The notes under the pieces: model-generated | Told to the model about the DNA's origin: nothing | What the model saw: the letters and a program-made list of their open reading frames with translations, nothing else | Database searches by the model: none | Program-made: the position numbers and the translations under genes | Source of the DNA: a virus | Virus record (IMG/VR): IMGVR_UViG_3300008111_000057 | Coordinates: 1 to 61,830 of that record | DNA: 61,830 nt | Strand: one strand, 5' to 3' | In this document: piece by piece, positions 25,095-40,126 of the stretch | How the letters are laid out: each line of letters starts with the position of its first letter | Position numbering within the stretch: the stretch's first letter is position 1

Positions 25095-25121
25095 CGTCCT
25101 GGGCATGACGTTAAACTGCCT
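25095..25121 (+). ncRNA. H-type pseudoknot leader, family C, copy 1
   Basis: Stem 1 CGTC (25095) with GACG (25107); stem 2 GGCA inside loop 1 with TGCC (25117-25120); linker TTAAAC. 24 nt before the ATG at 25145. Confidence 0.7.
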
Positions 25122-25144
25122 ATTCTACTTACTCATTTAACCCA

Positions 25145-25444
25145 ATGGAAATCAATTCTCCAACACCTCCTTTAGATCTTGTCAATGATTGGATGACACA
25201 TTGGTATGACGATAACCAAACAGATGACACGCAACCGCTGTATATTGCAACTAAAGCTTCAATGTGGGGCGCAATCTGGGGTGCTACCAATGCTTTGGAA
25301 ACAGCCATCCAAGACACGGCACCTGTTCATTGGCGCGTAGCTGGTGGGGCAGAAGATGGCCAACAGGTAGTACGTGTTATTGATTTAATGGAATGGCTTG
25401 CACAGTTCCGTAAAGAATACGAAGAAAAGATGTCTTGTAATTAA
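25145..25444 (+). CDS. 99-residue protein, unknown
   Basis: MEINSPTPPLDLVNDWMTHW... YDDNQTDDTQPLYIATKAS, a Gly/Trp-rich middle (MWGAIWGATNALETAIQDT) and a charged helical end. Many cyanophage small proteins share the 'vndWm..W' type of start. Expressed behind a family C pseudoknot. Function unknown. Confidence 0.6.
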   Translation: MEINSPTPPLDLVNDWMTHWYDDNQTDDTQPLYIATKASMWGAIWGATNALETAIQDTAPVHWRVAGGAEDGQQVVRVIDLMEWLAQFRKEYEEKMSCN

Positions 25445-25449
25445 TCAAC

Positions 25450-25476
25450 CGTCCTGGACATGACGCTAAACTGTCC
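25450..25476 (+). ncRNA. H-type pseudoknot leader, family C, copy 2
   Basis: Stem 1 CGTC (25450-25453) with GACG (25462-25465); stem 2 GGACA (25456-25460) with TGTCC (25472-25476); linker CTAAAC. It precedes the PcfJ-like gene start by 23 nt. Confidence 0.75.
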
Positions 25477-25499
25477 ATTCCACTTACCTACACTACACC

Positions 25500-27239
25500 A
25501 TGCAATTCGCTCTGCCTTCCAATCTTCAGACTGAACTCTTGGCTTATGATCCAAAGCTCAAGGCTTTGGCTAAGCAAGCCAACAAACCAGAAGCCAAGAA
25601 ACCGACGTATCCACTTGGCAAGATTCCTTGCTTGATACCAACACACATTGTGCGTGAAGCCGATCAGCAAGATGCAATTGCTCAGATCAATCAGCGTCCA
25701 GCACCACAGCGTTATCAAGTCTTTACTACACCTGTAGATGTAGCAACACCACAGGCTAGGCTCAAGGTCATTGCCATCCTGTATCACTACGAACAGGTGT
25801 GGTATGCAGCATGGTTACCTTCTAAGCAAGAGAAGGATCAGTATGTGTACGGTCATGCGTATGCATTCAAGAACACATCAGCTACACAGAAGACTGCACC
25901 AAATTGGATATGGAATAGCAAAGATGATTGCGTTGTCCACGACATTGGTCGTGGCTCACAACTCTTTGTCTACACCAATACAGCAACCATAGAAGATATC
26001 CGCGAAAAAGATTACGATAGCTGGCGTAGTTATCCATGGCGAGCAGGTAACCTTTACTGCCAGAAGGGTTATACAATTCGTGATACTGTTGTTAATGAAT
26101 TTGATAACAGCCTGCGGGAAAATCTCCCAACATGGGAAGATTCCCGTGGATTGTTTGATCGCATACGCTGCAAGAATATCTTTGATGCAGCAAACATACC
26201 GTCAATGATGTCAAAGCATCTTGATGAAACTCAAGGCTTGACTGTTGATAACTTCATTGCTGCTTCACTTGCATTCAAAGAAGAACACGGCTATAGCTCA
26301 TTAACGTATTCTGTTGTCACAAAGATTCAGCACATTGTTACTAAACCTGCCATCAAGAAACTATTGCAAGCAGAGTTAAACCGTAGCATTGATGCATATA
26401 ATGATCCCAATAACAAACACCAGCAACCTATTAGGCAAGGCTTTGCAACTTTTGTGCAGATCCTTAACTCAATCGAGTGGATTGATTCCATCTGGCCAGA
26501 CTGCCCTATTGATTACTATCAGACTTATTTCAAAGAACTTAAGTATCTTCGCTTGACTGAAGTGCGTCTACGCAGTGGGGCTACACAAGAGCCTTGTTTA
26601 ATCGACTGGTTACGTGAGCACATGCCTATTGCATCACTGTTTACAATCATGCGTAAGTACTTGGACAAACAACTTACTGAATACAATGGTCGCTGGGTTG
26701 ACAGCGATGTTGGGTACCAGCGTCAACGCTTTGGTGAACTCAACGATACATTCTCCATGATGCTTAAGATCCTTCATGTTGGTAATACATTGGAGCCACC
26801 GAAGCGTTGGCGTCTGACCGAGTTCCATGACTACGTACAATCCGAAGCATGGAAGATCCAGAATCCAAAGGAGTCCCTACGTCAAGATCTATTTCCTGAA
26901 CCCATCAAAGTCACACGTCTTGATAGGGTATGGACATTCTTTCAGCCTGTTGACACACATCAACTATCCATGTGGGGGCAAGCCGTACGCAACTGCGTTG
27001 GCTCTGCATCCCACTATGCGGATGACATCAAGAAACGTAAGCACTTCATTGTGTTATGTATGATTGATAACAAGCCCACCTTCACAATTCAATTGGTTGT
27101 GGACCAGGGTATGATGTCAGTCAAGCAGATTGCTGGCGTTGGCAATCGCAGTCTTGACTCAATAGAACGCAACGATTACACGGAAGCCTTCCGTGAGGTC
27201 TTGCAATTGCGTGAATCTGAGCTAAGCTCTAAGAGCTGA
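25500..27239 (+). CDS. PcfJ-like protein
   Basis: 579 residues. The C-terminal region, at about residues 490-560, has the pattern of PcfJ-like proteins found on plasmids and phages: AVRNCVGSASHYADDIKKR, then HFIVLCMIDNKPTFTIQL and VKQIAGVGNRSL. The N-terminal 450 residues are not recognised. PcfJ was described from a conjugative plasmid and its biochemical role is unclear; phage copies are common. Produced behind a family C pseudoknot, followed by a terminator-like hairpin. Confidence 0.65.
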   Translation: MQFALPSNLQTELLAYDPKLKALAKQANKPEAKKPTYPLGKIPCLIPTHIVREADQQDAIAQINQRPAPQRYQVFTTPVDVATPQARLKVIAILYHYEQVWYAAWLPSKQEKDQYVYGHAYAFKNTSATQKTAPNWIWNSKDDCVVHDIGRGSQLFVYTNTATIEDIREKDYDSWRSYPWRAGNLYCQKGYTIRDTVVNEFDNSLRENLPTWEDSRGLFDRIRCKNIFDAANIPSMMSKHLDETQGLTVDNFIAASLAFKEEHGYSSLTYSVVTKIQHIVTKPAIKKLLQAELNRSIDAYNDPNNKHQQPIRQGFATFVQILNSIEWIDSIWPDCPIDYYQTYFKELKYLRLTEVRLRSGATQEPCLIDWLREHMPIASLFTIMRKYLDKQLTEYNGRWVDSDVGYQRQRFGELNDTFSMMLKILHVGNTLEPPKRWRLTEFHDYVQSEAWKIQNPKESLRQDLFPEPIKVTRLDRVWTFFQPVDTHQLSMWGQAVRNCVGSASHYADDIKKRKHFIVLCMIDNKPTFTIQLVVDQGMMSVKQIAGVGNRSLDSIERNDYTEAFREVLQLRESELSSKS

Positions 27240-27248
27240 AGCCACAGC

Positions 27249-27285
27249 AGGGGCATCCTATCCTCGTAAATGGGATGCCTCTTTA
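27249..27285 (+). terminator. hairpin with short T run
   Basis: AGGGGCATCC pairs with GGATGCCTCT over 10 positions (one G-T wobble), followed by TTTACC. It lies between the PcfJ-like gene and the next start (27289), so it may act as an attenuator or stability element rather than a full terminator. Confidence 0.5.
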
Positions 27286-27288
27286 CCT

Positions 27289-27498
27289 ATGGACTACACC
27301 GATGACCAACTACTTGCCATGGCCATGGCCAACATTGGTGAGTACATTACGGACAACTCACCGCAGTACATCTTGATTGAAGAAGATCCTCGCAATGAGG
27401 ATGACTACGATAGCTGGACTTACGGAATGGAAGTCCTGCCTCAAGATCACACTTGGCAGTCAGATTCAATTGACGTAAGCCCAAGTGAGGCCGACTAG
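27289..27498 (+). CDS. 69-residue acidic protein overlapping a tRNA gene
   Basis: MDYTDDQLLAMAMANIGEYI... very acidic (EEDPRNEDDYDSW), ending SPSEAD. Its TAG stop (27496-27498) is made from bases 8-10 of the tRNA-Leu that starts at 27489. Function unknown. Confidence 0.6.
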   Translation: MDYTDDQLLAMAMANIGEYITDNSPQYILIEEDPRNEDDYDSWTYGMEVLPQDHTWQSDSIDVSPSEAD

Positions 27499-27564
27499 CC
27501 CAACGGCAGAGGCAAGCGACTTAAAATCGCTACAGTCCCGGTTCGAATCCGGGGTCGGCTACCA
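27489..27564 (+). tRNA. tRNA-Leu (anticodon TAA), short variable loop
   Basis: 76 nt including encoded CCA. Acceptor GGCCGAC/GTCGGCT (one G-T pair), D arm GCC/GGC with GG in the loop, anticodon stem AGCGA/TCGCT with loop CTTAAAA (anticodon TAA), variable loop ACAGT, T arm CCCGG-TTCGAAT-CCGGG and discriminator A. It is a canonical cloverleaf, but bacterial leucine tRNAs normally carry a long variable arm, which is absent. Its first 10 nt overlap the upstream gene. Confidence 0.9.
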
Positions 27565-27582
27565 ACTCAACACACTACACCA

Positions 27583-27942
27583 ATGGACATCATTCGTTCG
27601 ATCAAGTGCCTTATTCCTGAGTTCCATGCCTTCAGTGCTGAGGACAGGGGCTATCACGTTGGTGCTACCTGGACTGACGACCAGGGGTTGCGTGACTATC
27701 ACAACGTTGAACTCAAGTACACACGCAACTCAGAACGTCTAGCGCTCCAAGGCAAGCAGCAGCCTGATGGCAGTTGGCTTTACATTGAACCCAATGGTCG
27801 TTGCCATGTCATGTCAGCAGAGCGTGCTGCTCACTTCATGGCCCAGGCACAGGCACAAGCTCAGATCCTGGAACAAATGTTACAGAACATGAACACAGAT
27901 GGAGGCGATGGAGTGGTAGACACCACTGCGATAACTGTGTAA
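27583..27942 (+). CDS. 119-residue protein, unknown
   Basis: MDIIRSIKCLIPEFHAFSAE... a beta-rich region (DRGYHVGATWTDDQGLRDYH; PDGSWLYIEPNGRCHVM), then a Gln/Ala/Met-rich helix. Starts 18 nt after the tRNA, so it may be released by tRNA processing. Function unknown. Confidence 0.6.
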   Translation: MDIIRSIKCLIPEFHAFSAEDRGYHVGATWTDDQGLRDYHNVELKYTRNSERLALQGKQQPDGSWLYIEPNGRCHVMSAERAAHFMAQAQAQAQILEQMLQNMNTDGGDGVVDTTAITV

Positions 27943-27966
27943 GATCATCTAGCCAAGGACTACTCA

Positions 27967-27986
27967 GCCCCTGCGTAAGCGGGGGC
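27967..27986 (+). ncRNA. GNRA tetraloop hairpin before a start codon
   Basis: GCCCCTGC and GCGGGGGC pair over 8 positions (one T-G wobble) around GTAA. It is very stable and ends 8 nt before the ATG at 27995, close enough to affect ribosome entry. Confidence 0.55.
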
Positions 27987-27994
27987 CTTCCTTC

Positions 27995-28315
27995 ATGACA
28001 AACGATTCTATTGATCTTGACCTTGTTGACCAAACCATTGCACTGATACCAGAGCAAGCCTGGACTCAAGTGAGACAAGCAATTATTACAGCCTTAGTTG
28101 ATAACATGCCTGGCTTTGCACTTGAGAAGTTGACAGGTACTTATGATGGCTTCGATCGTGCAGAAGAGATTCTGTATGACTACTATCAACTTCCTGCTTT
28201 AAAACAAGATCTTATTGTTGATGCATTCAGTATCATGGGTGCATTCAATTGCCTCGAACTACTTAGCTCATTGAATCTTACTGAAGATGAATTGCAGACA
28301 ATGCAACAGCAGTAA
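27995..28315 (+). CDS. 106-residue acidic helical protein, unknown
   Basis: MTNDSIDLDLVDQTIALIPE... AWTQVRQAIITALVDNMPG, helical throughout, acidic, ending DELQTMQQQ. The last 29 nt overlap the next gene in a different frame. Function unknown. Confidence 0.65.
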   Translation: MTNDSIDLDLVDQTIALIPEQAWTQVRQAIITALVDNMPGFALEKLTGTYDGFDRAEEILYDYYQLPALKQDLIVDAFSIMGAFNCLELLSSLNLTEDELQTMQQQ

Positions 28316-28622
28316 CACACGCGTTACTTGTACTGAACATCTGGGACCTGATGTAACCAAACGCTATTGTCGTTGTCTTGATTGTGGTTGCAAGTTCCGT
28401 ACTGTTGAACGGTACGAAGTTGCTAAACCAATTCCATTAAAAGCCTACAAACCTATTGGTACCAGGAATGGAAACTCTTTCTTGACTGACAATGATGTGT
28501 TGATGATTCGTCATCTACATCAGAAAGGATTGAGCAATGGTCAGATAGCAATACGCTATGACACTGCTCGCAGTACAATCTCACGTATTGTCAACTACAA
28601 AACTTACACCAACATCAAATGA
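28287..28622 (+). CDS. zinc-ribbon plus helix-turn-helix DNA-binding protein
   Basis: 111 residues. The N terminus has CRQC (residues 3-6) and CLDCGC (about 30-35), a likely zinc ribbon of the 'C..C...RYRRCLDCG..F.T.E' kind found in NrdR-like and phage regulators. The C terminus has RNGNSFLTDNDVLMIRHLH then IAIRYDTARSTISRIVNYK, a resolvase-type helix-turn-helix related to the gene at 19611. It probably regulates phage or host transcription. Confidence 0.7.
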   Translation: MNCRQCNSSNTRVTCTEHLGPDVTKRYCRCLDCGCKFRTVERYEVAKPIPLKAYKPIGTRNGNSFLTDNDVLMIRHLHQKGLSNGQIAIRYDTARSTISRIVNYKTYTNIK

Positions 28623-28948
28623 CACAACAACACCCGATCACCCCACTACCGAAGCTATTCCAGAGGTGGTCAGAACAGTTTGAAGCAGGGAGACCACTCT
28701 ATGCAATGTTTGAAGATATTTACAGAGCAGGAGCAGACGCTGAGCTGGAGGCGTGCTGTGAGTGGTTACAGGATCCTGATCTCAATGTAGACACTTACAA
28801 ACTCCGCGCCGCACGCCGTCCTCAGCCGCCGAGCCTCAAGGAACAGGCGCTTGCTCTTGTCGAGCAGCACGAAGATGGTTGGCGACCGTCGCCCAAAGAT
28901 TGGGACACCCTTCGTCGTGCCCTTGAACAACTTCCCGACAACAACTAA
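28619..28948 (+). CDS. conserved cyanophage-type protein, paralogue 1
   Basis: 109 residues. HPITPLPKLFQRWSEQFEAG..., core AGADAELEACCEWLQDPDLN, then RRPQPPSLKEQALALVEQ and end TLRRALEQLPDNN. Strongly related to the gene 29258-29605. Start overlaps the previous stop (ATGA). I recognise the 'HPITPPPELvqqW...ELEACCEW' pattern as common in cyanophage and cyanobacterial small proteins; function unknown. Confidence 0.75.
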   Translation: MTQQHPITPLPKLFQRWSEQFEAGRPLYAMFEDIYRAGADAELEACCEWLQDPDLNVDTYKLRAARRPQPPSLKEQALALVEQHEDGWRPSPKDWDTLRRALEQLPDNN

Positions 28949-28956
28949 TTACTACA

Positions 28957-29256
28957 ATGACAACCAAGCGACAATTTGATTACAAGATTGGTGACCGTGT
29001 TGCTGAACGTCCCAAACCCCATGGGATCTACACAAACAACCAACAAACAAGAGAACGTATCTCTCAATACAGGAGCCAGCGGTATGGTGAAGTAGTTGGT
29101 ATCAACTACAAGAACAACTCACGTGGTGCCACCCAAAAGTTCTTGCTTGTTCGTTGGGATCATTTACCTAGCCCAACTGAACATGCCACTGCACGCATCT
29201 GTCCTGTGTCAGCGCTAGAACGTCTGACCAAAGAAGTCCTTGTCCCTGGCGAATGA
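28957..29256 (+). CDS. 99-residue basic protein, unknown
   Basis: MTTKRQFDYKIGDRVAERPK... GEVVGINYKNNSRGATQKFL, then LVRWDHLPSPTEHATARIC. It is beta-rich with a pattern 'GDRV...GeVvgi......VrWd', like small SH3/KOW-type barrels. Might bind nucleic acid. Tentative. Confidence 0.6.
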   Translation: MTTKRQFDYKIGDRVAERPKPHGIYTNNQQTRERISQYRSQRYGEVVGINYKNNSRGATQKFLLVRWDHLPSPTEHATARICPVSALERLTKEVLVPGE

Positions 29257-29257
29257 C

Positions 29258-29605
29258 ATGACACAAGAACACCCAATCACCCCACCGCCTGAACTGGTGC
29301 AGCAGTGGGTAGACGCTTACTTTGGCGGTGGAATCTCCCATGTAGACCTCGCTGCCCAAGCTGCCCAATGGGGCGCGGACCAGGAGCTGGAGGCGTGCTG
29401 TGAGTGGATTGACTCCTTTCAAAACAAATTTGTTTATGCCCATGATCTTCGTCTTGTCCGCCGCCCCAAGGCGCCGAGCTTGAAGAAACAGGCACTGGAA
29501 GCTTTGACATCTGCACCTGGGCCTGACTATCCCATTGTGATGACAATGCTTAACGCTGATCAACATGCCCTAATCCGCCGCGCCTTAGAGCAACTCGATG
29601 ACTGA
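29258..29605 (+). CDS. conserved cyanophage-type protein, paralogue 2
   Basis: 115 residues from MTQEHPITPPPELVQQWVDA. Core WGADQELEACCEWIDSF and RRPKAPSLKKQALEAL, end LIRRALEQLDD. Clear paralogue of 28619-28948, with one gene between them. Start set at 29258, two nt after the previous stop. Function unknown. Confidence 0.75.
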   Translation: MTQEHPITPPPELVQQWVDAYFGGGISHVDLAAQAAQWGADQELEACCEWIDSFQNKFVYAHDLRLVRRPKAPSLKKQALEALTSAPGPDYPIVMTMLNADQHALIRRALEQLDD

Positions 29606-29807
29606 AAACCAAATCCACTTTATACGTGGTTGCTGTACAACAATCCTTGCCTTTGCAGCTACTGGTTTAATCGCTGCAATCTTTTTGTCACCTGATGAAC
29701 CTAAGAACAACTCTAAGTTTGAAGTCATTGATCAGTACGAAGGTTGTTCAGTAATCCGTTACACTGATCCCACATCTCGCTGGCATTACTTCCTTAAGTG
29801 CTCATGA
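29598..29807 (+). CDS. 69-residue membrane protein, unknown
   Basis: MTENQIHFIRGCCTTILAFA..., one hydrophobic segment (TILAFAATGLIAAIFLS, residues about 14-30), then a small soluble domain ending HYFLKCS. The C-terminal pattern 'vidqyeGcsViRytd......yFlkC' is typical of small phage membrane-anchored proteins. Overlaps the previous gene and thyX. Confidence 0.6.
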   Translation: MTENQIHFIRGCCTTILAFAATGLIAAIFLSPDEPKNNSKFEVIDQYEGCSVIRYTDPTSRWHYFLKCS

Positions 29808-30445
29808 ACGTACAACTTGTTTGGGCAACGCCCAATGCAGAGGAAATGATCACGCGCATGGCACGCGTCTCTGCACCAAAGAACCAAGACAACATGGATA
29901 CCGCACCCAAGTTGTTGCGTTATCTGATTAAACATCAGCACTGGTCACCGTACGAGATGGCCAATCTCTGTGTTGAAATCAACACAACACGTGCAATCTC
30001 ACCGCAGATCCTTAGGCATCGTTCCTTCTCATTCCAGGAATTCAGTCAACGTTACGCAGATACCAGTGAACTTGGCTCAGCTATTATTCCTCATCTGCGT
30101 CGACAAGACTTTAAGAATCGTCAAAACAGTATTGATGATTTGTCTGCTGATGCAATCAGTGGTTATTACCGCCGCATTAGCAAGTTGTATGAAGACGCTG
30201 AACATCTCTACCGCGAGATGGTTAGCAGCGGCGTTGCAAAAGAATGTGCCAGGTCCATCCTGCCACTTTCAACACAGACCCGTCTCTTCATGAATGGCAC
30301 TATCAGATCTTGGATCCATTATCTACAACTGAGGACTCATGAATCAACCCAACTCGAACACAGAGAAATTGCAGGAACAATTAAAGGAATCTTCTGCAAA
30401 GAATTCCCAATCATCGGAGAGGCTGTGTTCTCAACAGATCAATGA
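29804..30445 (+). CDS. thyX: flavin-dependent thymidylate synthase ThyX
   Basis: 213 residues. Makes dTMP from dUMP using FAD, NADPH and methylene-tetrahydrofolate. The ThyX signature RHRSFSFQEFSQRY (RHRxxSxxxxSxR) lies near residues 71-84. SPYEMANLCVEINTTRAISP and HYLQLRTHESTQLEHREIAG fit the substrate and FAD regions. The start at 29804 overlaps the previous stop (ATGA). It supplies thymidylate for phage replication and fits the neighbouring replication genes. Its 3' end overlaps the next gene by 107 nt. Confidence 0.95.
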   Translation: MNVQLVWATPNAEEMITRMARVSAPKNQDNMDTAPKLLRYLIKHQHWSPYEMANLCVEINTTRAISPQILRHRSFSFQEFSQRYADTSELGSAIIPHLRRQDFKNRQNSIDDLSADAISGYYRRISKLYEDAEHLYREMVSSGVAKECARSILPLSTQTRLFMNGTIRSWIHYLQLRTHESTQLEHREIAGTIKGIFCKEFPIIGEAVFSTDQ

Positions 30446-30557: not shown

Positions 30558-30580
30558 TTAACTATTACCACTAATCACCT

Positions 30581-30847: not shown

Positions 30848-30856
30848 TCACCTTTA

Positions 30857-31122: not shown

Positions 31123-31196
31123 GGCTTTGGTATCTATTGATACGGAAAGTATATGACGATTGGTGTATATGATGTTGTTTACCAGGTAACACAACC

Positions 31197-31388: not shown

Positions 31389-31390
31389 CA

Positions 31391-32469: not shown

Positions 32470-32564
32470 GCACCTTCACTAATACTCCCGAACGGGAAAA
32501 TGGACCTGAGCACGTCCTAAAACTACTCATCAGTTTTCCTTATCATTCAACTCAACTCAACACC

Positions 32565-33323
32565 ATGAAACTCCTCAAGTTTTCCACAGGTAACGGCAAG
32601 CTCAAGAATCGTCTGATCTTCAACATCCCAGCGGGCTATGCATGTCCACACGCTGGTGTCTGTAAGACCATGGCTGATCGTGTCACTGGCAAGATCATGG
32701 ACCTACCTCAGTTCACTGGCACAGAAGCAGATGAGTATCGTTGCTTTGCTGCTATGGCAGAGACCAGGCCAACCGTACGTGAAGCTCGTTGGCACAACTG
32801 GGATCTGCTGCGTGAGACCATGCATATGAATGGGAATCAAGCCATGCTTTTGCGTGATCTGATCGACCTATCACTCTCAATGCAGCCATTGAAGAAGCTG
32901 CTTCGGATCCATGAGTCAGGCGATTTCTGGACTGAGAACTACATGCGTGCTTGGATCATGGTCGCACAAGAGCGTCCTAAGCAAACCTTCTACGCATACA
33001 CCAAGTCGCTTGGAATGTGGCTGAACCTCAAGGACATCATCCCATCTAACTTTTATCTCACTGCGTCGCAAGGTGGAACACTCGACTACCTGATCCCCAA
33101 GTACCCTGAAGTGTTCCAGCGCATTGCTCATGTGGTCTACACAGAAGAGGAAGCGCAAGAGCGTGGGCTAGAGATCGATCATGACGACAGCCATTGCCTT
33201 GGTGACAAGCCGTTCGCACTCTTGGTTCATGGTTCCCAGAGGGCTGGATCTGATGCCATGAAAGCCTTAACGCAACGGAAGAAAGAAGGTAAGTTTGTAG
33301 GTTACGGTAAGTCACAAAGGTAG
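32565..33323 (+). CDS. Gp88-like phage protein
   Basis: 252 residues. KLLKFSTGNGKLKNRLIFNI opens a domain with CPHAGVCKTMADR (Cys-rich), EYRCFAAMAETRPTVREARW, LLRIHESGDFWTENYMRAW, TFYAYTKSLGMWLNL and FYLTASQGGTLDYLIPKY. This order matches the mycobacteriophage gene-product-88 family and related phage proteins, whose function is unknown. The start at 32565 is preferred over an upstream in-frame ATG because it follows the usual CAACTCAACACC leader. The gene contains one TTTTCCACAGG motif near its start. Confidence 0.75.
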   Translation: MKLLKFSTGNGKLKNRLIFNIPAGYACPHAGVCKTMADRVTGKIMDLPQFTGTEADEYRCFAAMAETRPTVREARWHNWDLLRETMHMNGNQAMLLRDLIDLSLSMQPLKKLLRIHESGDFWTENYMRAWIMVAQERPKQTFYAYTKSLGMWLNLKDIIPSNFYLTASQGGTLDYLIPKYPEVFQRIAHVVYTEEEAQERGLEIDHDDSHCLGDKPFALLVHGSQRAGSDAMKALTQRKKEGKFVGYGKSQR

Positions 33324-33363: not shown

Positions 33364-33370
33364 CTGTTCA

Positions 33371-33604
33371 ATGGCTTACATCATTAGTACGTTGGTGGAT
33401 GGTGTGCCACACGCCATCCATGCCAATAGTTCCGACTCCAAGTTTGAACTGTTAGCTTTGGATTCTGCTAGTTCACTTAGTAGAATTTACTCCCATCCTT
33501 ACCGGGCTGGTGCTTATCAAGTTCTAAGTTGGATCCTGGACAATGAACCCACACTCTCCTGTTATGAGCTCCAGGTTTCCGATGAAGCCCGGTTCCAAAA
33601 ATGA
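33371..33604 (+). CDS. 77-residue protein before the DNA polymerase
   Basis: MAYIISTLVDGVPHAIHANS... FELLALDSASSLSRIYSHPY, ending SDEARFQK. Its last 23 nt overlap the likely start of the polymerase, so the two are coupled. Function unknown. Confidence 0.6.
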   Translation: MAYIISTLVDGVPHAIHANSSDSKFELLALDSASSLSRIYSHPYRAGAYQVLSWILDNEPTLSCYELQVSDEARFQK

Positions 33605-35405
33605 ATCTTGGTTAGTCTTTGATATTGAAACCAATGGCCTCTACGATAAAGTCACGAAAGTTTTTTGTATCGTTATCTACGATATCAACCGAGAAGAAAC
33701 TTTTGCTTATGGGCCTGATCGCATTGATGATGCTCTTGCTCATCTGGCAACCGGTGATGTACTCATTGGTCACAATGTGATCTTCTACGACGTACCGGTT
33801 CTGCAAAAACTACATTCATTCAACTGCAAAACACGCATCCTTGACACACTCATCTGCACACGACTCATTTGGCCCAAAGAAAAACTCTACGACCTTGACG
33901 TACAACTCTATCCGGAAGTTCCGAAGAACTACCGCGGGATGGCCGGTCTTAAAGCCTGGGGTTACCGCCTCTCCGATAACAAGATTGAGTTCAAAGATTT
34001 CTCGGAGTACTCAGAAGAAATGCTTGTCTATTGCAAGCAAGACGTCTCGGTTACTTCAAAACTTTGGAGGCATATCGCCAACCAAGGCTATCCAGAACAA
34101 GCTCTCAAACTTGAACACGACTTTGCTCTTGCCATTAATAAACAAATTAGAGCAGGTGTTTCTTTTGATGTGGATGCAGCTATTGATCTTGTGGATAATC
34201 TCCGAGCAAGAGAAGCACAGCTTGAAACGGAACTAAAAGAAATCTTTCCGCCAATCGAACATCGTAATTGGTTTACTCCTAAGGTCAACAATAAAAATCG
34301 TGGCTATGTCAAAGGAGTACCTTTTGAAAAAATCCATTACGAAGAATTCAATCCTGGATCTCGTGATCAAATTGCTGATCGACTCAAGGCTAAGTACGGA
34401 TGGCAACCAGAAAAGACAACTGAAAAAGGAAATCCAATCCTTAATGATGAAGTGTTAGAGGCATTGCCTTATCCAGAAGCCAAGCCTCTGGCAGAATACA
34501 TGCTCATCAAGAAACGCCTTGGTCAAATTGCAGATGGCAACAACGCTTGGCTCAAGCTGGTTAATAATGACAGCAGTCGTATGCACGGTGACGTTGTTAC
34601 TAACGGCTGCGTCACTGGTCGTTGTGCTCACCGATACCCAAATATGGGTCAGGTTCCAGCAGGCTATTCGCCATACGGCAAAGAATGTCGGTCATTATTT
34701 CATGCACCACAAGGATGGGACATGATTGGTATCGATGCCAAAGCATTGGAGCTACGATGTCTTGCTGGTTACCTTGCCATCTATGACGGTGGTGAGTATG
34801 CACGTGTGGTCACGGATCCAACAATTGACATTCACGTGTACAACCAAGAGCGTTTTGGTGTTGCTACCAGGGACATCAGTAAGCGTTTACTGTATGCCGT
34901 GTTGTATGGCGCTGGTCACCTTAAGGCTGGCAGCATTGTGGATCCGAATGAAAAAGATGAAGAAGTTCTGCGTAAACTAGGAAGAACTGCAATTAATTCA
35001 TTCATGGCTGAGGTGCCAGCCTTGAAAGAACTTAAGGAACGTATTGAATCTCAGATTGCAAACAATGATTGTCTCATTGGATTAGATCGCCGTATTCTTT
35101 ATTGCCGTTCGGCATTCAAAGGATTGAATGTTTTATTACAATCAGCAGGCGCAATCCTCATGAAGCAAGTTGTTATTAACATTCATGACAACATTGAGTC
35201 TGCCCTCAGTCTGCCCCATGGGGCAGAGTGGGAACAAGTCTTGATGGTTCATGACGAAGTGCAACTGGTTTGTAGTCCCAAATACACTGAACAGATCAGA
35301 GCCCAAGCATTGGCAGCTTTTCCACAAGCACAGCAATTCTTTGGATTCCTCTGTGACATTGAGGGAGATTCTCGTGTAGGATCCAACTGGAGCCAAACGC
35401 ACTGA
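33582..35405 (+). CDS. DNA polymerase I family (T7 gp5-like) with 3'-5' exonuclease
   Basis: 607 residues from MKPGSKNESWLVFDIETNG. The exonuclease domain has DIETNG (Exo I, about residue 13), GHNVIFYDVPVL (Exo II) and YCKQDVSVT (Exo III). The polymerase has motif A GIDAKALELRCL (about 381), motif B KRLLYAVLYGAG (about 432) and motif C MVHDEVQL (about 555). Replicates phage DNA. Shorter than T7 gp5 (704 aa). An earlier ATG at 33543 would add 13 residues. Tyr in the dNTP-binding helix of motif B is seen (LYAVLYGAG). It lies directly upstream of the SSB gene. Confidence 0.95.
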   Translation: MKPGSKNESWLVFDIETNGLYDKVTKVFCIVIYDINREETFAYGPDRIDDALAHLATGDVLIGHNVIFYDVPVLQKLHSFNCKTRILDTLICTRLIWPKEKLYDLDVQLYPEVPKNYRGMAGLKAWGYRLSDNKIEFKDFSEYSEEMLVYCKQDVSVTSKLWRHIANQGYPEQALKLEHDFALAINKQIRAGVSFDVDAAIDLVDNLRAREAQLETELKEIFPPIEHRNWFTPKVNNKNRGYVKGVPFEKIHYEEFNPGSRDQIADRLKAKYGWQPEKTTEKGNPILNDEVLEALPYPEAKPLAEYMLIKKRLGQIADGNNAWLKLVNNDSSRMHGDVVTNGCVTGRCAHRYPNMGQVPAGYSPYGKECRSLFHAPQGWDMIGIDAKALELRCLAGYLAIYDGGEYARVVTDPTIDIHVYNQERFGVATRDISKRLLYAVLYGAGHLKAGSIVDPNEKDEEVLRKLGRTAINSFMAEVPALKELKERIESQIANNDCLIGLDRRILYCRSAFKGLNVLLQSAGAILMKQVVINIHDNIESALSLPHGAEWEQVLMVHDEVQLVCSPKYTEQIRAQALAAFPQAQQFFGFLCDIEGDSRVGSNWSQTH

Positions 35406-35411
35406 GCTCTT

Positions 35412-35438
35412 CGTCCTAAGTATGACGCTAAACTACTT
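35412..35438 (+). ncRNA. H-type pseudoknot leader, family C, copy 3 (before SSB)
   Basis: Stem 1 CGTC (35412-35415) with GACG (35424-35427); stem 2 AAGTA (35418-35422) with TACTT (35434-35438), wholly different bases from copy 2 yet fully paired; linker CTAAAC. The SSB gene starts 20 nt later. Confidence 0.8.
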
Positions 35439-35458
35439 ATCACCTACTGTTTGAACAC

Positions 35459-36259
35459 ATGAACTTTGTTACAGTTTGCGCTCAACTCAACGACACACCT
35501 CGCGAAGTTTATACTTCTGCCACATCAAGCAACTATGTTGCAGAGGTAATGCTTCCTCCTGTAGGAAAAAATAAATCTGCAACATCTCTTGCGCTTCATG
35601 TTTACGGCAAGGCTGCTGAGAAATTCAGGACCCTTGATCGTGGTGCTCGTTTGTATGTACACGGTTCAAAGATCCGTTACGATATTGATGCCAAGGCATA
35701 CTCACTGCACGGCGGTGTTATTGCAGTTGTTAATGATTCGTTTCCAATTTTTAACGATGTGATTCTTACTGGTCGTTGCATTAAAGACATCGATCAAGAA
35801 GATGCACGTGCGTTTAAGACAACACCAGATGGTTTGATGATTGCCAATCAAACCATCTCAGTTAATACTGGTCGGAACCAAGGAGACTTGTTCAACTTCT
35901 ATGCAATTAATAGCAAGGATGACAAGTTAAATAACGCTGAGTTGATGGTCAACTTTACACGGAAAGGAACTGGACTTACCATTCGTGGCCGTCTTGTTAC
36001 CGATGCATGGACTGATAAAGAAACACAACAACGCCGAACACTGACCAAGATCCAGCTTGTGCAGATGACCTTGGCGCCAAAGCCTGGCATCAACGAGCCA
36101 AAGCCCGTAGCGTCCCAGACGACGGTTGCTTCTTCTGATAATGTTGCTACACTGTGGGGCGGCAAGACTGCCGAAGATTCCTGGAGCCAAGGTCTGCCTG
36201 ATCTCCCTGGTCAGTACGGACCAGCTCCTGAGCCTACTCCTGAATTCATTCCGTTCTGA
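35459..36259 (+). CDS. single-stranded DNA-binding protein, two OB-fold-like halves
   Basis: 266 residues. The first half (MNFVTVCAQLNDTPREVYTS; KSATSLALHVYGKAAEKF; GARLYVHGSKI) and second half (DVILTGRCIKDIDQEDARAF; DLFNFYAINSKDDKL; LTIRGRLVTDAWTDKETQQR) each show SSB/OB-fold strand order. A Pro-rich linker ends in PEFIPF, like the acidic-aromatic SSB tail. It probably protects single strands and recruits partners at the fork. Placed after the polymerase and behind a family C pseudoknot, which may allow self-control. Confidence 0.75.
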   Translation: MNFVTVCAQLNDTPREVYTSATSSNYVAEVMLPPVGKNKSATSLALHVYGKAAEKFRTLDRGARLYVHGSKIRYDIDAKAYSLHGGVIAVVNDSFPIFNDVILTGRCIKDIDQEDARAFKTTPDGLMIANQTISVNTGRNQGDLFNFYAINSKDDKLNNAELMVNFTRKGTGLTIRGRLVTDAWTDKETQQRRTLTKIQLVQMTLAPKPGINEPKPVASQTTVASSDNVATLWGGKTAEDSWSQGLPDLPGQYGPAPEPTPEFIPF

Positions 36260-36262
36260 CTC

Positions 36263-36493
36263 ATGCCTCTTCAACTTGATTTACAAGAACAAGATCTTCT
36301 TTCTTTAGAAGACGCCATTGCGTACGAATTTTTTATGGAGAGTGCATACAACATTATGCACAGTGCTAATGAAAAGGATTTAGACATTGCTGAACAAGTT
36401 TTAAAACTTGCTCAAGCTTCTTATCTGATTGCAAATATTTTTTGCGAAGTACGTTTAATTAACTCACAACAAACCAATGACACCGACGCATGA
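36263..36493 (+). CDS. 76-residue acidic helical protein, unknown
   Basis: MPLQLDLQEQDLLSLEDAIA... EFFMESAYNIMHSANEKDL, helical throughout, ending QTNDTDA. 17-nt overlap with the next gene. Possibly a small replication accessory protein by position only. Confidence 0.6.
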   Translation: MPLQLDLQEQDLLSLEDAIAYEFFMESAYNIMHSANEKDLDIAEQVLKLAQASYLIANIFCEVRLINSQQTNDTDA

Positions 36494-36716
36494 TCAGTTC
36501 ACTCTCCTCTATGAGGATGAGCACACTAAACTTCTGTATGAATTCAAGGCTCTTGTTGCTGACGATGTAATCAATCACCTTGTGGATTTTCTCAAGGGTT
36601 GTGGCTACATGGAAAGCAGTATCTTTGAATGCATGAAAGAATCTTCTGAGGCATATTTCGATTCATTACGTACTCAGCAGTACGTAATGAAATGGGACAA
36701 GCCTGAAGCAGAATGA
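36477..36716 (+). CDS. 79-residue acidic protein, unknown
   Basis: MTPTHDQFTLLYEDEHTKLL..., then DVINHLVDFLKGCGYMESSI and ending WDKPEAE. Helical. The family C pseudoknot of the next gene follows its stop within 6 nt. Function unknown. Confidence 0.6.
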   Translation: MTPTHDQFTLLYEDEHTKLLYEFKALVADDVINHLVDFLKGCGYMESSIFECMKESSEAYFDSLRTQQYVMKWDKPEAE

Positions 36717-36721
36717 TGATT

Positions 36722-36748
36722 CGTCCTGAGCATGACGTTAAACTGCTT
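36722..36748 (+). ncRNA. H-type pseudoknot leader, family C, copy 4
   Basis: Stem 1 CGTC (36722-36725) with GACG (36734-36737); stem 2 GAGCA (36728-36732) with TGCTT (36744-36748, one G-T pair); linker TTAAAC. ATG at 36770, 22 nt downstream. Confidence 0.7.
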
Positions 36749-36769
36749 ACTCCTGACTACGAAACAACC

Positions 36770-37786
36770 ATGACTTCTTCGATGACCACCAAGAAAACTT
36801 CTGCGCTTGCATCCAGGGGACTTGATTCCTTTAAGCTTTTCCAAGCCAAAGAGTTTGTTTCTGGCTACCAGAATCTTGTAACAATTCAACCACTAAACAA
36901 ATCAAAAGTACGTGGTTGGTTTGTCCGCAAGTCTGATCTTGATACCTGCGGATGGACTGCTACTGAAGATGAGTTTGCCAATGGTTCCGTCATCTGGAAC
37001 TATAAGCAGACCTTTGGTATGGCACCTAATACCTCCATTGAAGAGGGACTTAACTTCACGGAACCTCGCGTCCAGATCTTGTTGCGTTCTCCACTCATGG
37101 TGGAAGAGACAACTGGGATGCGTCAAACGATTGGCACCTTTGAAGATCCAGAGGTCAAAGCCATGTTTGAAAATGACAAGATTGCATCCGACCTTGCTAA
37201 CAGCAAGGGCGAGATGTACAAGCGTAAGTACAGTGTACGTACAAAGTACCTTGTATATATCCTGACCCAGGACAACAAGCGTGCTCATAAGATCCCCATG
37301 GTGCTAACACTCAAGGGTCTTAACGGAACCGATGTTTCCGACAAGGTTAAGCTGTACGAAAAGGAAATGTCTAAATGCCTGAGCAAGGCACTGGACTCTG
37401 AGGTACCGCTGGCATTCAACGAGAAGTTTTACGCCACTACGGTGTTTACTCCCGTCCTTGCCAACGAGATGCGTGGTGCTAACAACGTAGAGATTTGCGC
37501 CATCGAATCTTTTGACATCCCTGACTACAGCTCCCAAGAGGAAGCGGTTGCATCATTGGGCCGCCTTTCGATTCCTGATGAAGATCGTGAATCGACTTGG
37601 AAGTACCAAGGGATGTTTGAAGACTATATAAATCAACATTCTCGCCAAGATGCGCAGCGTCTTGGTGGTGCTTACGGAATCAAAGATGGCGTACAGATTC
37701 TTCCCGTCTCACGCATCGCAGATGCAGTTGATGTGAAAGCATTGCCTGCACGCAATGAACTAACCGGAGAAGATCTTAGCCTTTGA
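36770..37786 (+). CDS. replication-region protein, possibly DUF5895-like, unknown
   Basis: 338 residues from MTSSMTTKKTSALASRGLDS. Mixed alpha/beta with segments NKSKVRGWFVRKSDLDTCGW, RVQILLRSPLMVEETTGM, RKYSVRTKYLVYILTQDNKR and HKIPMVLTLKGLNG. This overall look resembles cyanobacterial and phage proteins of a DUF5895 type, which I cannot confirm. The start at 36770 is preferred: a longer ORF from 36713 would translate through the pseudoknot. Placement next to polymerase and SSB suggests a replication or recombination role. Confidence 0.65.
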   Translation: MTSSMTTKKTSALASRGLDSFKLFQAKEFVSGYQNLVTIQPLNKSKVRGWFVRKSDLDTCGWTATEDEFANGSVIWNYKQTFGMAPNTSIEEGLNFTEPRVQILLRSPLMVEETTGMRQTIGTFEDPEVKAMFENDKIASDLANSKGEMYKRKYSVRTKYLVYILTQDNKRAHKIPMVLTLKGLNGTDVSDKVKLYEKEMSKCLSKALDSEVPLAFNEKFYATTVFTPVLANEMRGANNVEICAIESFDIPDYSSQEEAVASLGRLSIPDEDRESTWKYQGMFEDYINQHSRQDAQRLGGAYGIKDGVQILPVSRIADAVDVKALPARNELTGEDLSL

Positions 37787-38015
37787 GGCGGTTCAAGATG
37801 TCATGGTCAACTTGATTACTCATCAAGTCCATGGCATCCTTTACTAATCCTTTAATAGCAACTTGACGCATCGTGGCGATCTTCGTTAGTAAGGTCGCCA
37901 TTTCTTTTAGCTCACTCATTGAACTGCATTCGTTAATGGAACGTATCATCTTCTCTTGCCAGAAGGCTTCTTCTGGACCCATTTCAAATTGCAACATGGG
38001 ATTCAATTGTTTCAA
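37776..38015 (-). CDS. 79-residue helical protein on the opposite strand
   Basis: MKQLNPMLQFEMGPEEAFWQ..., then SSMSELKEMATLLTKIATMR and GLVKDAMDLMSNQV. It is a natural-looking helical protein; the pattern 'NPMLqFEmgpEEaFWqEKMIRSI' is one I associate with cyanophage and cyanobacterial small proteins. It runs against its neighbours and overlaps the 3' end of the previous gene by 11 nt, so its transcript would be antisense to that gene. Function unknown. Confidence 0.65.
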   Translation of the reverse strand: MKQLNPMLQFEMGPEEAFWQEKMIRSINECSSMSELKEMATLLTKIATMRQVAIKGLVKDAMDLMSNQVDHDILNRLKG

Positions 38016-38075
38016 AGTATTCTAACTACAACGTAAACTTAATTAAACCTTTTGTTTATGTTAGGGATTCAACAC

Positions 38076-38264
38076 ATGAAACCAGAAGACAAAGCTGCTC
38101 TTACCGTCGGTGCTCAAACTGCATTAGTGACAGCGGCTGCTGCCATCCTTCTGCCTAACCCAGTCTCCTGGGCGGCTGCTATAGTGGCAACGTACCGCAT
38201 GGCCAAGCGTGCTCGCATCCAATCTCTGATTGACCAAGGGCAAGCCAAGTACTGGAGGGGGTAA
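38076..38264 (+). CDS. 62-residue membrane protein, unknown
   Basis: MKPEDKAALTVGAQTALVTA..., a hydrophobic segment of about 30 residues (TAAAAILLPNPVSWAAAIVA), then a basic tail (RMAKRARIQSLIDQ). In-frame starts at 38058 or TTG 38052 would make it slightly longer. Holin-like properties are possible but not shown. Confidence 0.55.
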   Translation: MKPEDKAALTVGAQTALVTAAAAILLPNPVSWAAAIVATYRMAKRARIQSLIDQGQAKYWRG

Positions 38265-38300
38265 CCACCTGGTACAACACACCAACTCAATTCAAATCAA

Positions 38301-39236
38301 ATGCAAACACAAGTTGAACTTAATGCAGCGCAAGCTGCAATCTATACACGCACGAATCTTTCACGTGCCTTTCAAGACTTTGATGACACCGACATTGGTG
38401 GCATCTATTTGCGAGGCGATGATTGTGTTGTGGTGCGTCGCGATGGTAGCGAGCAAGCTTACAACAGGGAACTAATCAAGACTTCCTTTAACAACTACAC
38501 CCACCGTCTTAAAGATTTCTTTTCCTATCTTGGTCCCAATTATCGTGGCCCTAGTGTATGGCACAACAATGCTTACATTCTTTTTAAGGGCTGGAACTAC
38601 TCACACGCACTCGGACACCTGAGCTCCCATGCAAAACTACAAGCACACTGGGCTGACAAATTTATACATGTATCAAACACCGACAAAGTCTTGCACCTCC
38701 TCCAGTCCGATCAAACGGATATTGGACATTTGGTTGCGCCAGACGGATTGCGGCTTCCGAATCGGCCCATTGACATTGACGGTGACATGGAAGCTGACGA
38801 CTCCGAGCCTGTCATGGGTGAACCTTGGTGTTCGTGTGGGTCGTATCAGCGTCAGCTCAGCAACGTATCTGACTTTGCGTCCGAGATCCAAGGATTCAAA
38901 CCCTGGTGCATCCACCTGACTTGGTTCAACAAGTACAGGGAACTGCTGTGCAAGCGCACCGAAGCACGGAATGCCAGTCCCAGTGGCACACCTGAGAAGT
39001 GTGTTGCCTGGTGGTATGCACCACCCGCTGATCACATCAGTGATGGACGCTTTGTATTGTTGTATACAAACTCAGGTGCACAAGCTCCGCTCAGTCATTG
39101 GCGTACCTACAAGCCCAAGGATATCTTTACCCAGCATGATGCATGGGATCTGTTTTTCAATATGATGGAGGCTGGCTACGTTCCATTCCCTGGTACTGCA
39201 TTGCCACAACTCAAGTCTGCTGTCAAAAAACAATGA
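38301..39236 (+). CDS. SWIM-type zinc-finger protein, unknown
   Basis: 311 residues. A C-x-C-x(24)-C-x-H arrangement (CSCGSYQRQ ... KPWCIHL, residues about 182-210) fits the SWIM zinc finger, which binds nucleic acid or protein. The N-terminal half (GGIYLRGDDCVVVRRDGSEQ; WHNNAYILFKGWNYSHALG) is of unknown fold. Set among replication genes. Overlaps the next gene by 4 nt. Confidence 0.65.
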   Translation: MQTQVELNAAQAAIYTRTNLSRAFQDFDDTDIGGIYLRGDDCVVVRRDGSEQAYNRELIKTSFNNYTHRLKDFFSYLGPNYRGPSVWHNNAYILFKGWNYSHALGHLSSHAKLQAHWADKFIHVSNTDKVLHLLQSDQTDIGHLVAPDGLRLPNRPIDIDGDMEADDSEPVMGEPWCSCGSYQRQLSNVSDFASEIQGFKPWCIHLTWFNKYRELLCKRTEARNASPSGTPEKCVAWWYAPPADHISDGRFVLLYTNSGAQAPLSHWRTYKPKDIFTQHDAWDLFFNMMEAGYVPFPGTALPQLKSAVKKQ

Positions 39237-39547
39237 CATTTCAAATCGATAATGGCGTTGTTTACCTAGGTACTCAATGCCCCAGTACAATACTCAAAAT
39301 TGAGTCAAAAGATTCAATGATTGACCCTGAGCTACGCAAGTATGCAACAGAGTTAGTCAACAAACCTTTTCCAAAACAAATGATGCTATCCAACGGCAAG
39401 TACTCACTACACCTTGAACTTGATGAAGACACTTACTGGGGTCTTGTTAAGCTAGGTGCAGAAATCAAAACTGATTGTGAAACTTATGCAGAACACATCC
39501 TCATTGGGCATATTGAATCCGGACTCGATCAACAAGCTACAGATTGA
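39233..39547 (+). CDS. 104-residue protein, tandem paralogue 1
   Basis: MTFQIDNGVVYLGTQCPSTI..., then GKYSLHLELDEDTYWGLVKL and GAEIKTDCETYAEHIL. The second half is similar in pattern to the next gene (SMTIHIEWDETDPDLQWWTD; LGAEGQETFMINALQQ), so the two arose by duplication. ATG overlaps the previous stop. Function unknown. Confidence 0.65.
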   Translation: MTFQIDNGVVYLGTQCPSTILKIESKDSMIDPELRKYATELVNKPFPKQMMLSNGKYSLHLELDEDTYWGLVKLGAEIKTDCETYAEHILIGHIESGLDQQATD

Positions 39548-39701
39548 ATGCATTGAAGAAGAGGATGGTTCCATGACCATTCATATCGAATGGGATGAAA
39601 CAGATCCCGATCTTCAATGGTGGACAGATCTTGGCGCAGAAGGCCAAGAAACCTTTATGATTAATGCACTCCAACAAGCTTGTGATTGTTATGTCGATTG
39701 A
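39513..39701 (+). CDS. tandem paralogue 2, start uncertain
   Basis: The coding part LQIECIEEEDGSMTIHIEWD..., then LGAEGQETFMINALQQACD. No ATG fits well: a TTG at 39513 would give 62 residues, while ATGs at 39456 or 39489 overlap the previous gene more deeply. Acidic; shares the C-terminal fold pattern with 39233-39547. Function unknown. Confidence 0.55.
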   Translation: MNPDSINKLQIECIEEEDGSMTIHIEWDETDPDLQWWTDLGAEGQETFMINALQQACDCYVD

Positions 39702-40077
39702 CACCTACGGCCTTAGCTCTGAGCAGTACACCGAGTTCTTTCATAAGAACATTCGTGCTGCAGCCAAGCTTTACTTGGATACCTGCAACATTTTGAGCAG
39801 CGAAGGGGTCGGCAATGTCGACTTCAAAACTGTCTCAGAGATGTACCAAGAAGCTGTGTACACTACCAATGATGATTGCCGTCGTTACCAAAAGAGTAAC
39901 AACCCCGAGGCTCTCAAAGATACTGATCTGCTAGGTATCTATCCTTCTAGAGAAGAGCTGTTGGCTGAGATCCAGGCTGTCAATGCCAAGGTCGAAGCAC
40001 TGAACGACTACGTTGCTGAGTTAGTTGCGGTCACCACCAAAGGGCTTACCGGCATTGCTGATCGCCTGGTAGACTAA
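39691..40077 (+). CDS. 128-residue protein with C-terminal coiled coil
   Basis: MSIDTYGLSSEQYTEFFHKN..., helical, with LLGIYPSREELLAEIQAVNA and VEALNDYVAELVAVTTKGL. The start overlaps the previous stop by 11 nt. A C-terminal coiled coil suggests an oligomer. Function unknown. Confidence 0.6.
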   Translation: MSIDTYGLSSEQYTEFFHKNIRAAAKLYLDTCNILSSEGVGNVDFKTVSEMYQEAVYTTNDDCRRYQKSNNPEALKDTDLLGIYPSREELLAEIQAVNAKVEALNDYVAELVAVTTKGLTGIADRLVD

Positions 40078-40099
40078 ACCCGCCGCCCTGCAGGGACGC

Positions 40100-40126
40100 C
40101 GTCCTGGTCAAGACGTAAAACTGACC
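40100..40126 (+). ncRNA. H-type pseudoknot leader, family C, copy 5
   Basis: Stem 1 CGTC (40100-40103) with GACG (40112-40115); stem 2 GGTCA (40106-40110) with TGACC (40122-40126); linker TAAAAC. ATG at 40147, 20 nt downstream. Confidence 0.75.

Follow-up and report, generated by a model that had tools for sequence, protein, structure and literature searches.

A 27-nucleotide element with two covarying helices, predicted to form an RNA pseudoknot, recurs at gene junctions of phages

The DNA analyzed here, called the window, is the whole 61,830-nucleotide stretch of IMG/VR virus record IMGVR_UViG_3300008111_000057 (positions 1 to 61,830). Its source is related to Synechococcus phage S-EIV1 (KJ410740), the two single-strand binding proteins (SSBs) being 61.5% identical. 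An earlier note, made from the letters alone, had described in it five short H-type pseudoknots, each just before a start codon, and had suggested that they form a regulon controlled by the SSB. The question raised by this locus is whether the repeated structure is real and, if so, whether it serves particular genes, a particular protein or the junctions between genes.

Six copies of the element in the window

The element is 27 nucleotides (nt) long and has the layout S1(4)-CU-S2(5)-W-S1'(4)-NUAAAC-S2'(5), where S1 and S2 are its two helices. Its copies in the window are the following, with distances to stop codons of open reading frames (ORFs) and to ATG codons.

25095-25121, plus strand: predicted pseudoknot, copy 1, CGTC-CT-GGGCA-T-GACG-TTAAAC-TGCCT; TAA of ORF 24880-25089 5 nt upstream, ATG 25145 23 nt downstream
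25450-25476, plus strand: predicted pseudoknot, copy 2, CGTC-CT-GGACA-T-GACG-CTAAAC-TGTCC; stop of ORF 25145-25444 5 nt upstream, ATG 25500 (PcfJ-like) 23 nt downstream
32502-32528, plus strand: predicted pseudoknot, copy 3, GGAC-CT-GAGCA-C-GTCC-TAAAAC-TACTC; ATG 32565 (GP88-like) 36 nt downstream
35412-35438, plus strand: predicted pseudoknot, copy 4, CGTC-CT-AAGTA-T-GACG-CTAAAC-TACTT; stop of the DNA polymerase gene 33543-35405 6 nt upstream, SSB ATG 35459 20 nt downstream
36722-36748, plus strand: predicted pseudoknot, copy 5, CGTC-CT-GAGCA-T-GACG-TTAAAC-TGCTT; stop of ORF 36477-36716 5 nt upstream, ATG 36770 (DUF5895) 21 nt downstream
40100-40126, plus strand: predicted pseudoknot, copy 6, CGTC-CT-GGTCA-A-GACG-TAAAAC-TGACC; stop of ORF 39664-40077 22 nt upstream, ATG 40147 20 nt downstream

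The five sites already known (25095, 25450, 35412, 36722 and 40100) are all placed as described, whereas the one at 32502 had been overlooked; we discovered it through homologues of pseudoknot-led S-EIV1 genes, in the GP88 leader. A relaxed scan of the window returns exactly these six copies, not five, compared with a mean of 0.33 and at most 2 in 60 dinucleotide shuffles of the window. In copies 1, 2, 4, 5 and 6, S1 pairs 4/4 and S2 pairs 5/5 when G-U is counted, confirming that the second helix is paired in all five; the GGGCA/TGCCT helix, previously taken as four pairs, has five by this count. The distance to the ATG in these copies, given as 18-24 nt, was measured as 23, 23, 20, 21 and 20 nt from the end of S2. 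Copy 3 has a fully exchanged S1 that still pairs 4/4 and an S2 that pairs 4/5, with a single C.A mismatch.

Three other features were seen in the window. Short inverted repeats stand just 5' of the copy at 40100 (40086-40095, CCCTGCAGGG) and just 5' of the copy at 32502 (32487-32496, CCCGAACGGG). At 16314-16333, the stretch CGTC-AAGCTG-GACG-TTAAAC resembles the element in stem 1 and loop 3, but the loop separating its stem 1 strands is shorter, and it was not scored as a copy.

Both helices covary in related and unrelated phages

In S-EIV1, a relaxed scan gave nine hits, two of which, on the plus strand, were judged to be chance matches, leaving seven copies, the one at 39529 being imperfect. 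By protein similarity, four leaders are common to the window and S-EIV1 (PcfJ, GP88, SSB and DUF5895). One more leader, which stands ahead of a short MFE... peptide, is matched by peptide start and size alone, with no tblastn hit between the S-EIV1 peptide and the 37-amino-acid peptide of the window. Covariation in homologous phages, which the earlier note had called for, was looked for in these leaders and found: the helices change and pairing is kept, save for single S2 mismatches in some copies. The S1 of the GP88 leader, for instance, is GGAC/GTCC in the window and TGTC/GACA in S-EIV1.

Scans that left one helix free yielded hundreds of further copies in viral contigs. Six viral-contig scans were made in all, and the counts from five of them rest on the matches listed and are minimum values; sites were merged only where their flanks are identical, related contigs remain in the counts, and the total of distinct sites varies by script from 377 to 575, depending on edge limits and on the loci in hand at the time. 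With S1 and the loops fixed and S2 free, at least 118 stretches were obtained, with 148 matches, 118 pairing 5/5 and 24 pairing 4/5. Once identical flanks were merged, S2 paired 5/5 in 111 of 138 sites among the matches listed, against a mean of 43.8 and a maximum of 58 when the 3' strands were re-dealt. In the reverse design, three scans kept S2 and the loops fixed, and the set was restricted to the 265 distinct sites first fetched by those scans. Among the matches listed, S1 pairs 4/4 in 209 of these, 3/4 in 53 and 2/4 in 3, whereas control shuffles gave complete pairing at 30.5 sites on average and at 47 at most. This set contains 47 distinct kinds of complete S1 helix, and 55 of its 59 S1 mismatches fall at the outer pair. 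When all viral loci are taken, including those first fetched with S1 fixed, which the 265-site set omits, S1 pairs 4/4 in 275, 3/4 in 64 and 2/4 in 3 of 342 sites among the matches listed. Stem 1 had been described as nearly constant; this is true of the five copies first noticed, because they share it, but not generally, as copy 3 and the 47 helices found elsewhere indicate that S1 covaries.

The loop lengths and most loop letters were set by the collection patterns, so that the strict geometry and the conserved loops count only in part as independent findings. With this limit, the 2/1/6 geometry was found at 505 sites and at 1 in reversed sequence, and in another scan the reversed-sequence control gave 5 hits against 272 real ones; judging by the printed examples, the (3,2,5) geometry is a register shift of the same sites. 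In loops-fixed alignments, the loop letters, largely set by the search patterns, are near-invariant and the helices variable. Conservation stops at 27 nt, beyond which positions -8 to -6 keep only a trace of the stop codon and an A is weakly favored next to S2' on its 3' side. Extension of S1 by one pair is unsupported (33% paired), and extension of S2 by one pair (U6-A28), although 72% paired, lacks covariation. An element acting at the DNA level, or a promoter, was ruled out because the helices exchange with pairing kept.

On comparative grounds, which are very strong, the two crossing helices predicted for the element are supported by compensatory change. The compensatory change reported earlier for S2 holds and extends to both helices, in related and unrelated phages, supporting the view that a structured RNA is under selection. 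We infer that the element folds as a compact H-type pseudoknot in which both helices coexist, a fold favored by the strict loop lengths, even if these are partly pattern-set. Loop-helix triples are probably formed within it and would probably make it stiff enough to halt processive enzymes.

The element lies mostly between genes

Copies avoid coding sequence: 50 of 550 lie within ORFs of 100 or more codons, compared with 64% of random places. The stop codon of a long frame lies 5-8 nt before S1 in 212 of 559 copies, compared with 33 of 2795 random places; in an earlier set of 215, the interval is exactly 5 nt in 71 and shorter in only 4. On the other side, considering genes of at least 40 codons whose ATG lies within 60 nt, S2 is separated from the ATG by 20-24 nt in 86 of 189 cases and by less than 20 nt in only 9, while several scaffold leaders have their ATG 57-74 nt beyond the element. 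A position just before a start codon is correct for the window but fails as a general rule. The general position of the element is in gaps between genes, typically 5-8 nt after a stop codon, and it is not specific to start codons.

Transfer RNAs (tRNAs) are among the neighbors. In a set of 382 copies, 15 are followed by a tRNA at a distance of 2-11 nt, with five near-identical tRNA-Asn contexts among them, and 3, all from Synechococcus phage S-CRM01, start 2 nt after one; 0.17 was expected on each side. In a larger set, 8 of 339 copies end 3-7 nt before a tRNA, with 0.38 expected within 30 nt, and two of these sites are shared with the 382-site set. The clearest arrangement is a tRNA array of S-CRM01 (record positions 149226-149783; loci L424 and L434), in which ARAGORN gives tRNA-Ser, 2 nt, element, 5 nt, tRNA-Met, 2 nt, element, 3 nt and tRNA-Leu, the tRNA-Ser not being annotated in the record. 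Three of the five well-paired copies of this phage touch tRNAs.

A U-tract follows within the first 14 nt in 71 of 567 copies, about one in eight, compared with 14.1 (maximum 24) in local shuffles and with 4-23 copies in neighboring 14-nt windows. These 71 copies could have the layout of an intrinsic terminator, a stable stem followed at once by a U-tract; the six window copies do not. Upstream, a U-tract precedes 25 of 559 copies, 15 of these with an abutting hairpin; where the organism is named (7 of the 15), it is a Firmicutes bacterium or a Streptococcus phage.

Recoding by frameshift or readthrough was rejected since the stop-to-start phase is random (46/45/36 of 127 sites). The frame after the upstream stop stays open through the element in 77 of the 127, and there is no fixed reading phase from the upstream frame into the downstream gene at these sites.

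Neighboring genes

In the window, the genes led by the element, in the replication region, are the following.

25145-25444, plus strand: ORF of 99 amino acids (aa), between copies 1 and 2
25500-27239, plus strand: PcfJ-like gene (PF14284, E 1.3e-05), 42% identity to its pseudoknot-led S-EIV1 homologue
32565-33323, plus strand: GP88-like gene (PF17338, E 3.7e-40 on 32565-33317), 68.5% identity to its pseudoknot-led S-EIV1 homologue
35459-36259, plus strand: SSB gene (PF00436, phrog_44), 61.5% identity to the S-EIV1 SSB
36770-37786, plus strand: DUF5895 gene (PF19247), 82% identity over 327 aa to its pseudoknot-led S-EIV1 homologue
40147-40260, plus strand: 37-aa hydrophobic peptide MFESLF...; MFE... 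peptides of like kind stand behind the element in other contigs

Of the targets named in the earlier note, a PcfJ-like gene, the SSB gene, a replication-region gene and a tiny membrane peptide, the first two match PF14284 and PF00436, and the peptide is hydrophobic. Elsewhere in the window, 47410-47480 on the minus strand is a tRNA by Rfam (42.3 bits) and not by ARAGORN, which lists only a tRNA-Leu at 27489.

In the whole set of copies, scaffold proteins from two Pfam families (PF14265 and PF06810), SSB, PcfJ, GP88 and DUF5895 are among the downstream products, and Hsp20, DUF932 and portal proteins among the upstream ones. Protein clustering gave 240 upstream clusters among 447 sites and 226 downstream clusters among 430. 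One Hsp20 upstream cluster is followed by the element across 11 downstream clusters, and one scaffold-like downstream cluster is preceded by it across 9 upstream clusters. Among pairs of the 369 copies with both neighbors, 670 share the downstream gene only, 382 the upstream gene only and 280 both. The element is tied to neither flank alone, the downstream gene being more often kept.

In many phage contigs the element stands directly behind Hsp20 or DUF932 genes (L334, L337, L340, L341, L344, L377, L380, L383, L386, L480; L342, L366, L370, L385, L387, L442), at times with a U-tract and promoter-like boxes next, as in L340. In leaders before scaffold-like genes (L198, L231, L232, L261, L277), the pseudoknot is followed by another hairpin-like stretch, GCGT-TCTGG ... 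CAGA-GGGC, which is perhaps part of scaffold autoregulation.

Distribution among phages and bacteria

Among named phages, copies with S1 4/4 and S2 at least 4/5 occur in Staphylococcus aureus phage B166, S. hominis StB12, Streptococcus Javan407, Lactobacillus phiEF-1.1, thermophilic phage D6E, Moorella MTATph1, Mycobacterium Labelle, Nostoc NMeng1, Microcystis Mwe-JY13, Synechococcus S-SM2, S-H35 and S-CRM01, Vibrio D456 g1 and Corynebacterium phi673. Near-copies with one outer S1 mismatch were found in Paracoccus ParMal1, Cylindrospermopsis virus RM-2018a and a gut microvirus, and one with a lengthened third loop (L3) in Arthrobacter Molivia. When 18 named phage records were scanned, 31 matches were obtained in 16 records, compared with 5 for the reversed pattern. 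The Staphylococcus, Streptococcus, Lactobacillus and D6E phages have a single pattern match per genome, before the scaffold gene. A blastn search returned 135 matching records, 83 from Staphylococcus phages and 27 from Vibrio, of which one Vibrio and two Staphylococcus records were examined. Several candidates were discarded: the structure is not formed in Lak-phage and coliphage hits (L313, L314), and S2 pairs only 3/5 at sites before the scaffold genes of Stenotrophomonas BUCT702 and Leuconostoc LLC-1 and at a site before S-CRM01 gp32 that had looked T4-like.

A scan of 84,980 bacterial and archaeal species with a related pattern gave 97 stretches, with the element formed at the match in 51 and the remainder taken as chance; record titles are known only for L198-L277. 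The carriers include Firmicutes contigs with scaffold-like genes and a second group of Omnitrophota, Deltaproteobacteria and others. In this second group the element overlaps or abuts the 3' end of a tiny Cys-containing peptide gene, encoding ...RPVAHCxEGC or ...PRVAHCSDGC and variants, at a near-fixed distance from the last Cys codon (L210, L220, L227, L244, L248, L256, L258, L266, L268, L270, L271, L278, L281, L287, L290, L293). The named records are from Omnitrophota, Deltaproteobacteria and Neomarinimicrobiota. A Rrf2-like regulator, judged from its translation, lies downstream in some, and in L293 a desulfoferrodoxin gene (Pfam).

At gathering score, Rfam 15 gave only tRNAs for the window and 20 other loci, with no family over the element. 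With E relaxed, the small nucleolar RNA family ceN69 (18.4 bits, gathering 45, E 2.1) overlapped the copy at 36722, which we took as chance. A literature search that included RNA and DNA strings of the core returned no description of the element; its scope took in neither a survey of 224 candidate RNAs from 2017 nor the paper on the S-EIV1 genome.

A candidate boundary between RNAs

The explanation that we favor, with a probability of roughly 0.4, is that the element would act as an autonomous RNA boundary, blocking exonucleases at cistron junctions and, when a U-tract follows, also ending transcription. Coding junctions, tRNA spacers and U-tract ends all share a nearby RNA end or cut, and it is for this reason that a structure stopping exonucleases is preferred. 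Enzymes entering after a cut on either side, by RNase P at a tRNA or by other endonucleases in the unstructured leader, could not pass the element, and the RNAs on its two sides would have separate lifetimes. The upstream messenger would thereby gain a stable 3' end immediately after its stop codon, and the copies with a U-tract would probably be intrinsic terminators as well. In the window, six junctions of the replication region would be marked in this way.

About 5 nt separate a stop codon in the A site from the mRNA entry of the ribosome, and an initiating 30S subunit reaches about 20 nt upstream. The spacing limits of the element equal these dimensions, which suggests that it is placed so as to fit between a ribosome terminating upstream and one initiating downstream, staying folded during translation of both, and therefore that its work is not done by the ribosome. 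RNase J as the sole target is weakened by a Vibrio phage: its copy is intact and has an S1 that is fully exchanged (TCTC/GAGA), and Vibrio is not known to possess RNase J. A flaviviral exoribonuclease-resistant RNA of unrelated fold mechanically halts bacterial RNase J1 (PMC5760640). More tentatively, the element could be a general RNA punctuation of the phage world, one pseudoknot shared by phages from several bacterial phyla and by some bacteria, isolating cistrons and tRNAs from mutual decay and processing without a dedicated protein.

Several observations weigh against a boundary. For 4 of the 5 window copies folded, the minimum under nested folding is the S2 hairpin by itself, covariation alone cannot separate a pseudoknot from two alternative hairpins, and S1 is just four pairs long, with 53 of 265 sites having three. 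None of the six window copies has a U-tract downstream. The upstream messenger is already 3'-structured in the 15 copies just behind a hairpin and U-tract, an order that protection of upstream RNA leaves unaccounted for. The 20-24 nt spacing to the ATG in cyanophages (86/189) would suit a translation element equally, and the greater fidelity to downstream genes fits such a role too.

Control of translation, in which the pseudoknot and an unstructured A/C-rich leader would recruit 30S subunits as a standby site or bind a regulatory protein, is an unlikely alternative. The S2-ATG spacing is sharply bounded at 20 nt with its mode at 20-24 nt (86/189), and the element stays with SSB, GP88, PcfJ and scaffold-like genes as upstream genes change; yet copies beside tRNAs or in tRNA arrays have nothing to translate, and the spacing grows to 57-74 nt in several scaffold leaders. 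Five of the six element-led S-EIV1 genes examined have no Shine-Dalgarno-like word, but only 24 of 115 S-EIV1 genes without the element have one, so this absence is not special (the crude label used in this tally caught 5 chance matches besides the 6 real element-led genes). We consider it rather improbable that the element is instead a signal to RNA polymerase, by put-like antitermination or pausing, or chiefly a terminator. The U-tract directly downstream in 71 of 567 copies and the copies that directly follow hairpin-U-tracts or stand ahead of scaffold-capsid genes and of tRNAs would suit this role, which is at odds with the 496 of 567 copies lacking a U-tract in the first 14 nt and with the window and S-EIV1 copies, situated inside runs of co-oriented genes.

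It is doubtful that the element is a site bound or cut by an RNA-processing enzyme, a host or phage endonuclease recognizing the loops CU and UAAAC. Nearly invariant loops with varying helices, as in protein or ligand sites, and the position at junctions, tRNAs included, would fit such an enzyme, but the loop letters were largely fixed by the search patterns, internal triples would also yield invariant loops, and we know of no common enzyme for such different hosts. The SSB regulon proposed earlier is not supported, and we hold an operator like that of T4 gene 32 to be very improbable. A copy does precede SSB in the window, in S-EIV1 and in related contigs, and T4 gp32 binds a leader pseudoknot (PMC3014915). 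However, SSB accounts for one of 6 copies in the window and one of 7 in S-EIV1, and its cluster for 23 of 430 downstream ORFs and 20 of the 369 sites with both flanking ORFs. The element also precedes scaffold genes, the only place of the single match in the staphylococcal, streptococcal and lactobacillus phages, adjoins many kinds of tRNA and follows Hsp20 and DUF932 with varied genes downstream; in S-CRM01 the gp32-leader site has an S2 of 3/5, while three of the five well-paired copies adjoin tRNAs. Finally, a riboswitch for a small molecule, built as a minimal pseudoknot like those for preQ1 or of the SAM-II class, hardly seems credible: the short pseudoknot, its near-invariant loops and its place upstream of genes recall one, but the genes looked at have no metabolic theme, copies lie beside tRNAs, and no Rfam riboswitch hit was obtained at gathering thresholds.

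An element that is common in viral sequence, strongly covarying and without an Rfam 15 match at gathering score represents a gap in RNA annotation. If the favored boundary role is correct and the element blocks nucleases, it would explain unequal RNA lifetimes of neighboring genes in compact phage operons and would provide a very small natural RNA boundary, a ready part for RNA engineering. This model is directly testable in vitro with purified enzymes.

Comparison with known systems

The leader pseudoknot of gene 32 in T4, T2 and RB69 is likewise a small H-type pseudoknot in a phage leader, comparable to the copy at 35412-35438 before the SSB gene at 35459. It lies 67 nt upstream, and after it comes an A+U-rich stretch whose UUAA(A) repeats cover the ribosome binding site (PMC3014915). 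A stretch of this kind was not found in the SSB leader of the window, where 35439-35458 reads ATCACCTACTGTTTGAACAC, without UUAA repeats. Moreover, the T4 pseudoknot is known for one gene only, a restriction that fails for an element dispersed over many genes and tRNAs. STAXI RNA (RF01728) is also a pseudoknot near genes of DNA-binding proteins including SSB but, unlike the element, consists of two or three pseudoknots in tandem, often with UUCG loops (PMC2864571). Up to an E of 10, its covariance model matched nothing in the window, and with the differing architecture this rules out the element as STAXI.

ToxI, of type III toxin-antitoxin systems, forms tandem repeats beside its toxin gene; such tandem pseudoknot repeats are absent from the window, whose six copies are single and dispersed over 15 kb. 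The ToxI-type antitoxin is a pseudoknot RNA of 36 nt (PMC12373285). The element shares a short first loop and an A-rich third loop with luteovirus frameshift pseudoknots and the pistol ribozyme, and differs from them in having no fixed reading phase and in the end of its conservation at 27 nt. In pistol there is also a P1 hairpin, the loop of which forms a pseudoknot. REP/BIME sequences are hairpin repeats of enterobacteria, intergenic and dispersed, found soon after stop codons and said to stabilize upstream RNA. The element is similarly a dispersed structured repeat after stops, but it is built of two crossing helices with strict geometry and is kept at homologous junctions. With the exoribonuclease-resistant RNAs of flaviviruses and plant viruses, which are larger ring-like folds of RNA viruses, it would share the principle proposed here, a pseudoknotted fold acting as a mechanical block to exonucleases.

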